This document shows positions 32,400 through 47,443 of a stretch of 50,840 nt of DNA, one piece after another. Position numbers and translations under genes: made by a program. Location of the stretch: assembly GCA_007134675.1 (NCBI GenBank), contig SLKJ01000133.1, forward strand, positions 1 to 50,840, written 5' to 3'. Under the pieces are notes generated by a model. The model saw only the letters and a list, made by a program, of their open reading frames with translations, was not told where the DNA came from and made no database searches. Each line of letters opens with the position of its first letter. Position 1 is the stretch's first letter. This DNA comes from Bacteroidales bacterium (GTDB lineage Bacteria > Bacteroidota > Bacteroidia > Bacteroidales > PUMT01).

Positions 32400-33758
32400 T
32401 CAGATGAAAGCCGGTCTTAAGAGCATAGGGGTAAGGTCTGTAAGTTCACCAATATTTACCGGCCTTCTTTCAGCAATACTTCTTCTTGCTGCAACACCTA
32501 CAAGAATTGACATTACCCCGTCGCGAACCCCTGCCTGTTGTCCCAAAGGATCAGGCATTCCTGGATCCTTAAAAAGTTTGTCGTTCATAAGTGGATCTCC
32601 TCCCCAGTGGCCTCCACCTGCAAATGGAACCCTTATAACTTTGGCCGGTTTGTTATTGAAAATACTGACAGGAGTGAAGGTAATATCCGTATGATCCTTG
32701 CGCGGATATCCGAGTACCCTTGCCTCAAGCCTGCCTTTAGTTCCGTTAAATGCGATCCAGTATCCATCAAAATCGGTGTCGGCAGTAAGTGAGTAATTCA
32801 GGTAGGACCCGTTGGCATATTTTACAATAGCAGAATGCTTCTCATGTATGTCTATCTGGTGTCTGAAGACACAGTTATCTCTTATGTATCCGTCGTAATG
32901 TTCGTTATCGGCGTAAAGCCTTTTCAGCCTCTCATTATCATTGATGTTCCAGTAATAGGGACATTTGGCTGTATGGGCACAGTTCCTGCAGTTCTTGCCC
33001 CTGAAGGGACCCTTGCTGCCAAAACGTTCAAGTGTGCCAAATGCCTGTACCTGGGCCGGCTCTGAATTAATCAGCCAGTTGGCCATGTCGAAATGATGGG
33101 TGGCTTTGTGTACCCATAGAGTGCCGCCCCTGTTGCTCTCGCCGTGCCAGCGCATCATGTATTGCTGGAGGTGGCTGTGATGGATATTCCAGTGAAAATC
33201 CACAGATCTTACATCACCTATCAGTCCTTCCATGATCAGCTCTTTTATTTTTGCCCTGTAAGGTGGATAGCGGTAATTGAATGTAACGATTACCTTTTTA
33301 CCGTATTTCCTTTCGGCATCAATTATCGCCTGTGCCTTAACCTCGTCAATTGTGACGGGCTTCTCGGTAATTATGTCGCATCCCATCTCCATGCCCTTGA
33401 TGATCACTTCATGATGAGAAGAATCTTCGGTAGTTACAATAAGGGTTTGTGGTTCCTGTTTACTGATCATCTCTTCAAGACTGGTAAAGGTGGGGATGCC
33501 TGCACCAATAGTTTGACCGGCAACACCCAGTCTGCCGGGATTTATATCACAGAGGCCGACAAGCTCAACATAATCAGAGTAGTTCCTGAGCAGGTCCGTT
33601 CCAAACATGCCTATACCCCTGACACCTGTTCCCACCAGACCGAGTCTTTTCTTTGCCTTTGGTGACGTGTGGGATACAGTTATGGCTGAAACCGGGCTGA
33701 TTAACATTGTTCCTGCTGCTGCGGTTCCTGCACTTGCAATGAATTTTCTTCTGTCCAT
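32400..33758 (-). CDS. Tat-exported Gfo/Idh/MocA-family oxidoreductase
   Basis: The 452-residue product begins with a twin-arginine signal, MDRRKFIASAGTAAAGTML, and so is probably exported folded with its cofactor. The Rossmann motif LGLVGTGVRGIGMFG and the E-K-P motif in ITEKPVTIDE are present, as is HKATHHFDMANWL in the C-terminal domain. An unusual feature is a Cys cluster, NCRNCAHTAKCPYYW (Cys257, 260 and 266) with another Cys at 296, which could hold a metal. Exported members of this superfamily in Bacteroidota are linked to glycan breakdown, including NAD-dependent glycosidase chemistry. The gene is monocistronic and convergent with the pterin dehydratase gene. Confidence 0.85.
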   Translation of the reverse strand: MDRRKFIASAGTAAAGTMLISPVSAITVSHTSPKAKKRLGLVGTGVRGIGMFGTDLLRNYSDYVELVGLCDINPGRLGVAGQTIGAGIPTFTSLEEMISKQEPQTLIVTTEDSSHHEVIIKGMEMGCDIITEKPVTIDEVKAQAIIDAERKYGKKVIVTFNYRYPPYRAKIKELIMEGLIGDVRSVDFHWNIHHSHLQQYMMRWHGESNRGGTLWVHKATHHFDMANWLINSEPAQVQAFGTLERFGSKGPFRGKNCRNCAHTAKCPYYWNINDNERLKRLYADNEHYDGYIRDNCVFRHQIDIHEKHSAIVKYANGSYLNYSLTADTDFDGYWIAFNGTKGRLEARVLGYPRKDHTDITFTPVSIFNNKPAKVIRVPFAGGGHWGGDPLMNDKLFKDPGMPDPLGQQAGVRDGVMSILVGVAARRSIAERRPVNIGELTDLTPMLLRPAFI

Positions 33759-33833: not shown

Positions 33834-33904
33834 ATGAAAGAGGTAATAAAAAACAAGCATGAAAGAGGTAATAAAAACAGGCATGAAAGAGGTAATAAAA
33901 ACAG
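33834..33904 (+). repeat. Tandem ~24-bp repeats in the yhaO leader
   Basis: Three units begin ATGAAAGAGGTAATAAAA at 33834, 33859 and 33883, with lengths of 25, 24 and 22 bp. Each starts with ATG and a GA-rich block that could itself act as a ribosome site for the next. They lie between the Tat oxidoreductase gene and yhaO. Confidence 0.85.
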
Positions 33905-33990: not shown

Positions 33991-35259
33991 ATGCATTTAA
34001 AATTTCTACACACCGCTGATCTTCATCTGGACACCCCTTTTAAAGGGCTTGGCGAATGGAATCCATGGCTTGCAGGTAAACTTAAAAATGCTACTTTTAA
34101 AAGCTTTTCCAGAATTACGGATTTGGCAATTTCCGAAAATGTTGATTTTGTACTTATTGCAGGAGATGTATTTGATAGTGAAAATATGAGTCTTGCTGCA
34201 CAATTGAAATTTGTGGCTGAACTCAGGAAACTGTCCGAGAACGGTATAAATTCATATTTTATATGCGGGAATCACGATCATCTCACATCATGGGACAGAG
34301 GACTTTCACTGCCTTCCGGAACTGTCCGTTTTGATTCATCAGAGGTCCGGAAAATTACCCATTACAGGAAGGGGGAGGCTGTTGCAGATATATATGGAAT
34401 AAGTTATCAGAACAGTTATGTTAAGGAGGATCTTTCACTTAAATACCATAAAACAGGTAGTGCTGCTCCTTTCTCAATTGCCCTGCTTCACGGAATGGCA
34501 GATATAGCAGGGAAGGATGAAAGGTACGCTCCTTTTTCTGTAAAAAACATTCTTGAGAAATCTTTTGATTACTGGGCGCTCGGACATGTTCACAAAAGGA
34601 GGATACTGAATGAAGATCCACCTGTTGTATATCCCGGAAATCCTCAGGGCAGGGATTTTGGAGAAACCGGAAAAAAAGGTTGCTACATTGTTGAAATGGA
34701 GACTGGCAGGAAACCCGTCCTGAGTTTTACCGCGCTTCAGTATGTACGGTTTGAAGAAATTGAACTTGACATTACCGGACATGAAGATGTAACGGTAGTT
34801 ACCGATCTGATAGATCAGGAAATTGATGCATTAATGTCATCGGACAGGAATACAGGATTTATATTCAGGGTATTGCTGACCGGGAGGACTGGGTTACACA
34901 GATCATTCAATATTCCCGGAGAAGCCCGGCAACTTGCAGAAGAGCTGAACAGCCGATACCCTGAAGGGGATTTGGTTTCATGGATTGATTCAATTGAGTT
35001 GATGACCCGTCCACCTGTTGATCCGGACAGTTTGAAAGAAGCCGGAGATTTTACGGCTGCTTTGATCAGGAGTATTGAAAGATATGAGGAAGACCGGGAA
35101 CTTATTAAGGTTATTCTTGAAAAACTCACAAATGAATTACCCCGGGCCAGAATTATCAGGGAGACAGGTCAGTTGTCAGAAAGTGAAAGTTACGAGATAT
35201 TGGAAAGGAGTAAGTGGATGTTGCTGGACAGGCTGGCAGGTGACCGTCAGGATGATTAG
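33991..35259 (+). CDS. yhaO: SbcD/YhaO-like DNA repair exonuclease subunit
   Basis: The 422-residue product carries the calcineurin-like metallophosphoesterase motifs of SbcD/Mre11 proteins: LHTADLHLDTPF (Asp/His metal ligands), LIAGDVFDSENM, ICGNHDHLTSWD, ALLHGMAD and ALGHVHKRR, all within the first 210 residues. The C-terminal part (about 270-422) is helical and would contact the ATPase. In Firmicutes the pair is YhaO/YhaN; the partner here is encoded 78 nt downstream. The likely role is nuclease processing of DNA ends or hairpins. The family is clear; the exact substrate is not. The symbol is by family resemblance. Confidence 0.85.
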   Translation: MHLKFLHTADLHLDTPFKGLGEWNPWLAGKLKNATFKSFSRITDLAISENVDFVLIAGDVFDSENMSLAAQLKFVAELRKLSENGINSYFICGNHDHLTSWDRGLSLPSGTVRFDSSEVRKITHYRKGEAVADIYGISYQNSYVKEDLSLKYHKTGSAAPFSIALLHGMADIAGKDERYAPFSVKNILEKSFDYWALGHVHKRRILNEDPPVVYPGNPQGRDFGETGKKGCYIVEMETGRKPVLSFTALQYVRFEEIELDITGHEDVTVVTDLIDQEIDALMSSDRNTGFIFRVLLTGRTGLHRSFNIPGEARQLAEELNSRYPEGDLVSWIDSIELMTRPPVDPDSLKEAGDFTAALIRSIERYEEDRELIKVILEKLTNELPRARIIRETGQLSESESYEILERSKWMLLDRLAGDRQDD

Positions 35260-44706: not shown

Positions 44707-45462
44707 ATGGAAAAGGAAATTGTACTTGTAACAGGCGCTACTTCAGGGATAGGAGAGGCAATAGCCGGATTATTGGCTGAAAACGGTTTCAGGATTATTC
44801 TTACAGGGAGAAGGAGTGACAGGCTGGAGCAGTTGAAGAACCGGTTTGAAAAACTGACATCCGTGCATACACTCTGTTTTGATATAAGAGACAGGGCACT
44901 GGTTGACAAGGCTGTCGATTCTTTGCCTGAAGTGTGGCAGGAGGTTGATATTCTGATAAATAATGCAGGGCTGGCAGCAGGATTTGATCATTTTCATGAA
45001 GGAGATATCGAGGACTGGGAGCAGATGATAGACACCAACCTTAAGGGAGTCCTGTATATAAGCAGGAAAATTGCTCCGGGAATGATTGAGAGAGGATCAG
45101 GACATATAGTGAATGTTGGAAGTATTGCCGGAAGTGAGATGTATGAAAAGGGTAATGTCTATTCAGCCACAAAGCATGCTGTTGAAGCTTTGTCAAAGGG
45201 GATGAGAATTGATATGCTGAAGCATGGTATAAAGGTTTCGACAGTCTCTCCCGGAATGGTTGAGACGGAGTTTTCGCTGGTCAGGTTCAAGGGCGACAAA
45301 GATATGGCTAAGCATCCATACAGGGGCATGAAGCCTCTTACCGGCAGGGATGTTGCCGAGGCTGTTCTTTTCATGCTCACCCGCCCGCCCCATGTAAGCA
45401 TACATGATCTGCTGATAATGCCTACCGCACAGGCAACTACGCTTAATGTGCTTAGGGACTGA
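44707..45462 (+). CDS. Short-chain dehydrogenase/reductase, YdfG-like
   Basis: The 251-residue product is a classical SDR: the nucleotide motif VTGATSGIGEAIAG (residues 7-20), ILINNAGLAAG, the catalytic Ser in NVGSIAGSEMY and the Y-x-x-x-K pair in YSATKHAVEALSKGM. The basic RRSDR after the second strand suggests NADP(H). It resembles the serine/3-hydroxy acid dehydrogenase group (YdfG) in length and in the C-terminal RPPHVSIHDLLIMPTAQA. It is cytoplasmic. It stands in its own transcription unit, 210 nt ahead of the flavodoxin-reductase-like gene. The substrate is not certain. Confidence 0.9.
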   Translation: MEKEIVLVTGATSGIGEAIAGLLAENGFRIILTGRRSDRLEQLKNRFEKLTSVHTLCFDIRDRALVDKAVDSLPEVWQEVDILINNAGLAAGFDHFHEGDIEDWEQMIDTNLKGVLYISRKIAPGMIERGSGHIVNVGSIAGSEMYEKGNVYSATKHAVEALSKGMRIDMLKHGIKVSTVSPGMVETEFSLVRFKGDKDMAKHPYRGMKPLTGRDVAEAVLFMLTRPPHVSIHDLLIMPTAQATTLNVLRD

Positions 45463-45555
45463 CTGGTTTTACAGACAGTTCATGTCAGATATCCGGCATT
45501 TCCGGATTTTAATGCAAGAGTATATATTTTTTAAAGCCGGTTCGAACAATCGTAG

Positions 45556-45575
45556 TACTTTTGATGTTAATTAAC
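45556..45575 (+). promoter_or_regulatory. Candidate -7 box and palindrome before the reductase gene
   Basis: TACTTTTG at 45556-45563 fits the Bacteroidota -7 box, and the palindrome GTTAATTAAC follows at 45566-45575, near the predicted start of transcription. No TTG is found at the -33 position. The resulting leader of about 100 nt would contain the tandem repeats. Confidence 0.35.
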
Positions 45576-45591
45576 CTACTAGGTAACAATT

Positions 45592-45663
45592 TATCACAAA
45601 ATAATAATCTATCACAAAATAATAATCTATCACAAAATAATAATCTATCACAAAATAATAATC
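45592..45663 (+). repeat. Four tandem 18-bp repeats abutting a start codon
   Basis: The unit TATCACAAAATAATAATC occurs at 45592, 45610, 45628 and 45646 without mismatch, followed by a degenerate fifth copy, TATTTCAAAATG (45664-45675), whose last three bases are the start codon of the next gene. The units contain no stop in the frame of that gene, but also no ATG. A copy-number change would alter the leader length and possibly ribosome access. Confidence 0.95.
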
Positions 45664-45672
45664 TATTTCAAA

Positions 45673-46344
45673 ATGTCAAAGCAATACGTAAGAATAAAGT
45701 CAATCAAAAAAGTGACGCATGATACTTTAAGTATAGTTACTGAAAAGCCCGATGGTTTTACCTTCAAACCCGGACAGGCTACAAACATAGCTATAGACAG
45801 AAAAGGCTGGGAGGAAGAGGCAAGGCCATTTACTTTCGCATCACTTCCGGAGGATGATTTTTTTGAATTCGTTATCAAGACATATCCTGAACATGACGGA
45901 GCTACAGACAAGCTTCTTGATGTTCAGGCAGGTGAGAGGTTGATTTTATCACAGGTATACGGTACGATTGAGTATAAGGGCGAGGGTGTATTCATTGCCG
46001 GAGGCTCTGGTATTACTCCGTTTCTTTCTATTCTGAGAGATCTCCACAGGAAGAGTCGGACGGGTAACAACAAGCTGATTTTCGCCAATAAAACCGAAAA
46101 GGATATCATTCTGAAAGGTGAGCTGGAGGAGATACTTGGAGAAAGTTTTGTCAATATCCTTTCGGAGGAAAAAATTGAAGGCTATGAACATGGATTTGTG
46201 AATGATGAGTTTCTTAAGAGGGAGGTGGGGGACTTCAACGGGTATTTTTATCTTTGCGGCCCTCCGGTGATGATGAATAAAGTCGAAGGATACCTTAATG
46301 ATCTTGGAGTTGATAAAGATCAAATTGTAAAGGAGACCTTCTGA
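45673..46344 (+). CDS. Flavodoxin/ferredoxin-NADP reductase-like FAD protein
   Basis: The 223-residue product has the two-domain ferredoxin reductase fold: an FAD domain (about 1-98) with ARPFTFASLPEDDFFEFVIK, matching the R-x-[FY]-[ST] FAD motif, and an NAD(P) domain (about 100-223) with GVFIAGGSGITPFLSILRDL and FYLCGPPVMMNKVEGYL. It should move electrons between NAD(P)H and a small carrier or directly to a substrate. It is short, lacks a [2Fe-2S] domain, and is cytoplasmic. Its leader is made of tandem 18-bp repeats. A DUF302 gene follows 95 nt downstream. Confidence 0.88.
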   Translation: MSKQYVRIKSIKKVTHDTLSIVTEKPDGFTFKPGQATNIAIDRKGWEEEARPFTFASLPEDDFFEFVIKTYPEHDGATDKLLDVQAGERLILSQVYGTIEYKGEGVFIAGGSGITPFLSILRDLHRKSRTGNNKLIFANKTEKDIILKGELEEILGESFVNILSEEKIEGYEHGFVNDEFLKREVGDFNGYFYLCGPPVMMNKVEGYLNDLGVDKDQIVKETF

Positions 46345-47124: not shown

Positions 47125-47373
47125 ATGAGACCATCATTTGAATTTTATCAAAAGGGAATTGAAAGGTATAACTCCTGTGACTACAAAGGAGCCATACTGA
47201 ACTTCGACAAAGAGATAGAAATTAACCCCGGAAACGCTAAAGTGTTTCATGTCAGAGGTTTTGCCAAATATATGATTGCTGATAAAGATGGTGCATTCCT
47301 GGACTGGCTAAAGGCAGCAGAACTGGGTGGAAGGGGAATTCATGGAATGGTTAAAAGGCACTTCAATAGTTGA
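47125..47373 (+). CDS. Small TPR protein
   Basis: The 82-residue product has two TPR-like helix pairs: FEFYQKGIERYNSCDYKGAI, LNFDKEIEINPGNAKVFHVR and GFAKYMIADKDGAFLDWLKA. There is no signal peptide. It is probably a small protein-interaction module; the partner is unknown. The last codons (MVKRHFNS and stop) overlap the first unit of a 19-bp tandem repeat, so the C-terminus may have been made by the repeat. It precedes the htrA gene by 170 nt on the same strand. Confidence 0.65.
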   Translation: MRPSFEFYQKGIERYNSCDYKGAILNFDKEIEINPGNAKVFHVRGFAKYMIADKDGAFLDWLKAAELGGRGIHGMVKRHFNS

Positions 47374-47443
47374 AAGGACTTCAGATAGTCGAGAGGACCT
47401 CAGATGGTCGAAAGTACTTCAGATAGTCGAAAATACTTCAGGT
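47349..47443 (+). repeat. Five tandem 19-bp repeats across the TPR stop codon
   Basis: Units begin at 47349, 47368, 47387, 47406 and 47425, of the type AGTCGAAAGTACTTCAGAT with two to several changes each. The middle of each unit, GAAAGTACTTC, is nearly palindromic. The first unit encodes the end of the TPR protein, and the stop lies in the second. Confidence 0.9.

Follow-up and report, generated by a model that had tools for sequence, protein, structure and literature searches.

An 18-bp minisatellite, probably a local repeat expansion, in the predicted leader of a Bacteroidales reductase gene

The reductase gene and the array upstream of it

The window considered here is the whole stretch of 50,840 nucleotides of the Bacteroidales contig. 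Near its end, an open reading frame encodes a protein in which FAD_binding_8 and NAD_binding_1 domains are detected above the Pfam cut-offs (PF08022, PF00175 and PF08030). The initial annotation had called it an FAD reductase and the domains bear this out: FAD-binding and NAD-binding domains are combined as in FNR-like flavin reductases, and the sequence resembles NADH-cytochrome b5 reductase and other members of the ferredoxin reductase superfamily. The start methionine is common to the protein and its orthologs (MSKQYVRIKSIKKV...). A tandem array of 18-bp units runs into this start codon. The features of the region, all on the forward strand, are distributed as follows:

45544-45569 (+): putative promoter element GAACAAT-N14-TGTTA (PM2/ECF-like), kept in 8 of 13 orthologs and enriched before superoxide dismutase (SOD) and OsmC genes
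45564-45722 (+): chance open frame of 52 amino acids (NNLSQN repeats) that crosses the array and that a TAA interrupts in the sister species
45584-45601 (+): first unit, degenerate (16/18), TAACAATTTATCACAAAA, counterpart of the upstream unit of the sister species
45602-45655 (+): three exact 18-bp units, a lineage-specific addition of 54 bp according to the unit layout and the ortholog comparison
45656-45673 (+): last unit, degenerate (16/18), TAATAATCTATTTCAAAA, which ends in the A of the start codon and places A at -3, -12 and -13
45673-46344 (+): FAD/NAD(P)-binding reductase, 223 amino acids, identified by its Pfam domains and genus orthologs

TRF places the array at 45584-45674 (period 18, 5.1 copies, 94% matches, score 154). 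Its longest run of period-18 identity covers 57 positions; in 40 first-order Markov random windows scanned for periods 6-60, no run exceeded 14. Both figures confirm that the reported array exists. Head-to-tail units of this size (~10-60 bp), repeated beyond chance, make it a minisatellite. The unit is TAATAATCTATCACAAAA; in this phase it occurs exactly three times, starting at 45602, 45620 and 45638. Four identical units and a degenerate fifth, beginning at 45592, had been described: the count is right in the phase that starts there, but the first degenerate copy was missed, and the true left edge lies 8 bases earlier, at 45584. On the right side the start codon does belong to the repeat, as was claimed, since the A of the ATG (45673) is base 18 of the last unit and is followed by TG.

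The array could also be a coding repeat, translated either as NNLSQN hexapeptides within a small ORF starting at ATG 45564 or as an extension of the reductase at its N-terminus. The unit length is a multiple of three and the frame from ATG 45564 stays open for 52 codons through the array. However, this ATG lies partly within the putative -10 box, and a TAA closes the frame in both sister species; the upstream ORF was rejected on these grounds and is probably not translated. Upstream of its ATG the reductase frame meets its first stop, a TAG, at 45580, and it contains no ATG, GTG or TTG within the array; with no usual upstream start codon and with orthologs that begin at the same methionine, the extension was rejected as well. 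We regard a coding role as highly improbable, and both open frames are best explained by a unit length divisible by three. That copy changes would keep the upstream frame, as had been pointed out, is arithmetically correct but is of no consequence for the reductase, given the TAG and the lack of a start codon.

Comparison with related species and with other tandem arrays

The genus was represented by 13 genomes, one per species. The closest reductase orthologs, with 79% protein identity, belong to the sister species G008 and G011. Both have two imperfect 18-bp units directly 5' of the ATG (in G008, AAGCAATTTACCACAAAA then ACATAATTTATTTGAAAA) and lack the middle units. The first unit of the array resembles the first unit of the sister species (15/18) and the last one resembles the second (14/18). 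In the alignment with G008 and G011 one 53-column gap spans the extra units, and a one-base difference absorbs the odd base with respect to 54 bp. Copy number between species is thus five here versus two in the sister species, with one genome per species. The homologous unit pair was found in three genomes only, two of them without expansion; in the orthologs beyond the sister group the 18-bp unit was not found. Further upstream the sequence differs in G008, which suggests that promoter block and gene move together.

The simplest history compatible with these alignments would be a net gain of 54 bp, i.e. three units gained between two old edge units. The recent expansion proposed initially is in this sense supported as lineage-specific, the two closest relatives having two units only. 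The absence of any difference among the three inner units fits a recent gain; homogenisation by later slippage would look alike. A wrong copy number produced by assembly would be a concern for a metagenome-assembled genome of 203 contigs, but the edge units are unlike the inner ones and match those of the sister species, and the 91-bp array is shorter than a typical short read. An artefact is therefore the least credible of the readings considered, and extremely improbable.

Could each unit instead bind a DNA- or RNA-binding regulator, so that extra copies would alter gene control? Two related units are indeed kept in two sister species. On the other hand the unit lacks palindromic symmetry, differences between units are scattered over its whole length, and the orthologs outside the sister group do without it. 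The exact unit has no further occurrence in the 2.9-Mb assembly. With up to three mismatches, the genome-wide search gave 4 matches outside the array and its edge units, versus 6 for the reversed-pattern control, i.e. no excess. A repeated operator is in our opinion very unlikely.

Minisatellites were counted in 502 kb of genome stretches, window included. This sample contains 18 tandem arrays scoring at least 60, whose periods range from 6 to 72. Thirteen fall outside predicted genes or at their margins, and none but the reductase array reaches into a start codon. In the 150 nt upstream of the gene, a tandem array is present for 4 of 13 reductase orthologs and for 8 of 267 other genes (P = 5e-4), or 3 of 12 versus 7 of 266 when the window is left out (P = 0.006); the test is post hoc, the arrays of the other orthologs have marginal scores (only 50-61) and the species are not independent. 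In two other species the upstream array has a unit that differs in both sequence and place. The comparison suggests that the region upstream of the reductase is prone to duplication, and the excess could also reflect selection on the region rather than neutrality.

The promoter-like element and the leader

The element GAACAAT-N13/14-TGTTA reaches a score of at least 11/12 in 8 of 13 reductase orthologs, a count that is circular, the element having been first spotted there. In seven genus orthologs its first base lies at -66 to -80 relative to the start codon, compared with -129 here; the shift with respect to the two closest species (-76) equals the expansion to within a base. The claim that a promoter-like element lies upstream, at a distance from the start set by the copy number, is thus upheld. 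Exact matches (spacer 11-16) number 13 in the host genome, versus 2 for the reversed control, and 36 versus 17 in total in six other genomes of the genus. Genes located behind the element in the genus include those for ferritin, superoxide dismutase, glutathione peroxidase, an OsmC-family protein and an AhpC/TSA peroxiredoxin; the corresponding sites, in the host and related genomes, are L172-L214. A score of at least 10/12 within 160 nt was obtained for 7 of 8 SOD genes of one type (P ~4e-8) and for 9 of 10 OsmC genes of one type (P ~3e-10), against a background of 23 of 399 ORFs; these genes were collected by family and the subtypes picked after the scores were seen, which makes the P values optimistic. 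For ferritins the association is less clear. With subtypes chosen post hoc, the element is thus associated with oxidative-stress genes, as PM2-type promoters are.

PM2, as described in two reports, is a non-canonical, near-palindromic -30/-10 promoter of Bacteroides thetaiotaomicron, enriched before oxidative-stress genes (PMC7366714); it has TGTT near -10, and ECF sigma factors may recognise it (PMC12596196). As far as these descriptions go, the present element is similar in being a two-box near-palindrome (AACA..TGTT) with TGTT at a predicted position near -10, placed before oxidative-stress genes. It differs in belonging to another Bacteroidales lineage, and its -10 placement is deduced from sequence. 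We consider it a candidate oxidative-stress (PM2/ECF-like) promoter common to the reductase and the stress genes; its identity with PM2, which was compared through its text description, is a lead. A scan of the + strand for the sigma-70 consensus gave no match in 45400-45800. A canonical Bacteroidetes -7 box (TAnnTTTG: TACTTTTG) is present at 45556-45563; because G008 and G011 do not share its matching positions, GAACAAT..TGTTA was preferred. In G009 (L012:1390-1439) a 22-bp tandem duplication is located upstream of the orthologous reductase, and its unit starts with AACAAT, the first box of the element.

If transcription starts about 10 nt past TGTT, near 45576, the whole array would be leader RNA, and on this placement it is most likely a transcribed leader. 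The expansion would lengthen the leader from ~43 to ~97 nt by adding G-free, unfolded RNA. The array contains no G and has a folding energy of 0 kcal/mol; the 100-nt leader folds at -2.2, compared to a background mean of -14.2, which puts it within the 1.5% of 267 upstream regions that have the least structure. Bacteroidetes initiate translation without Shine-Dalgarno sequences, favouring unstructured leaders and A at -3, -6, -12 and -13 (PMC6847099); the last unit has T at -6 and A at the three other positions. The initial proposal that the array replaces the ribosome-binding region does not hold: the leaders of the relatives are likewise A/T-rich and without Shine-Dalgarno, and the last unit keeps A at -3, -12 and -13. 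The added units thus alter neither the A-rich start context nor the promoter boxes nor the coding frame.

Possible effect of the expansion and known repeat systems

We think it likely that the array is a 5' leader minisatellite in which an old 18-bp pair has gained three exact units (+54 bp), with a neutral or mildly graded effect. The ancestral imperfect pair would have separated the start codon from a conserved stress-type promoter, and slipped-strand mispairing or unequal recombination was probably the route of expansion. The expansion would likely have no effect, or shift translation or mRNA stability slightly and in a graded way. From its sequence, this looks like an ordinary local repeat expansion, which at most might tune expression. 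On/off phase variation is unlikely, because both the spacing of the promoter boxes and the frame are independent of copy number. Graded tuning of translation or of mRNA life is possible.

A stronger version of graded tuning would make the array a locus of variable copy number, where slippage shifts the number of units and leader length or A-rich tracts set the amount of reductase, as in bet-hedging. Its position between promoter and start, the exact inner units, which permit slippage, and the over-representation of tandem duplications upstream of the reductase in the genus are in its favour, as are precedents of two kinds. The first, as cited in PMC4679880, is the AGAT repeat in the UspA2 5'UTR of Moraxella catarrhalis (6-23 copies, with strain variation and an effect on expression). 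It resembles the present array in standing in the leader, 3' of the promoter and 5' of the start, and differs in being a tetranucleotide for which strain variation and an effect on expression have been demonstrated. The second concerns the promoter tandem repeats of lpdA, dop and cysG in M. tuberculosis, with units of ~54-58 bp and measured copy-number variation (PMC12817950). There too tandem units lie near the gene start, and lpdA is a flavoprotein oxidoreductase; however, the unit is described as repeated promoter sequence and the variation was measured, whereas here the promoter-like element, read from sequence, stands outside the repeat. Compared to typical contingency loci the array has fewer units and a longer one, and two of the only three genomes with the homologous pair are unexpanded. 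Such a tuning locus thus seems unlikely to us. A specific form of it, in which a copy-number-variable, G-free 18-bp leader repeat multiplies the A-rich initiation tract under a stress-type (PM2/ECF-like) promoter and acts as a translational rheostat, is quite unlikely.

Heptamer TAACTGA direct repeats have been described 5' of start codons in Beggiatoaceae, Cyanobacteria and some Bacteroidetes (PMC4679880). They are similar to the present case in that direct repeats lie where a ribosome-binding region would be expected, in a copy number that depends on the lineage, and occur in Bacteroidetes; they differ in having a 7-bp unit dispersed over many loci, versus an 18-bp unit at one locus. Given its unit, TAATAATCTATCACAAAA, the array does not belong to the TAACTGA family.

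Should copy number tune expression, the locus would provide a natural test of leader length and A-rich tracts in Shine-Dalgarno-free Bacteroidetes translation; otherwise the array is one among several minisatellites of its host genome. The more useful by-product may be GAACAAT-N13/14-TGTTA, which links the reductase with a putative oxidative-stress regulon of this uncultured Bacteroidales genus.

Other minisatellites were observed along the way. An identical 15-bp minisatellite occurs on opposite strands at two contig ends (TATTTGGGTTATTGG / AATAACCCAAATACC; L163:18969-19119, end of G000:C175, and L122:5874-5932, end of G000:C165), so longer arrays probably break the assembly and are undercounted. 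In the window, a 24-bp array at 33834-33904 (2.9 copies, ATGAAAGAGGTAATAAAAACAGGC) lies between the divergent genes 32400-33758 (-) and 33991-35259 (+), the latter encoding an SbcD/Mre11-like phosphoesterase. A 19-bp array at 47354-47441 (4.6 copies, AAAGGACTTCAGATAGTCG) covers the 3' end of a small ORF (47125-47373) and fills the gap before a gene for an HtrA/DegP-like protease.
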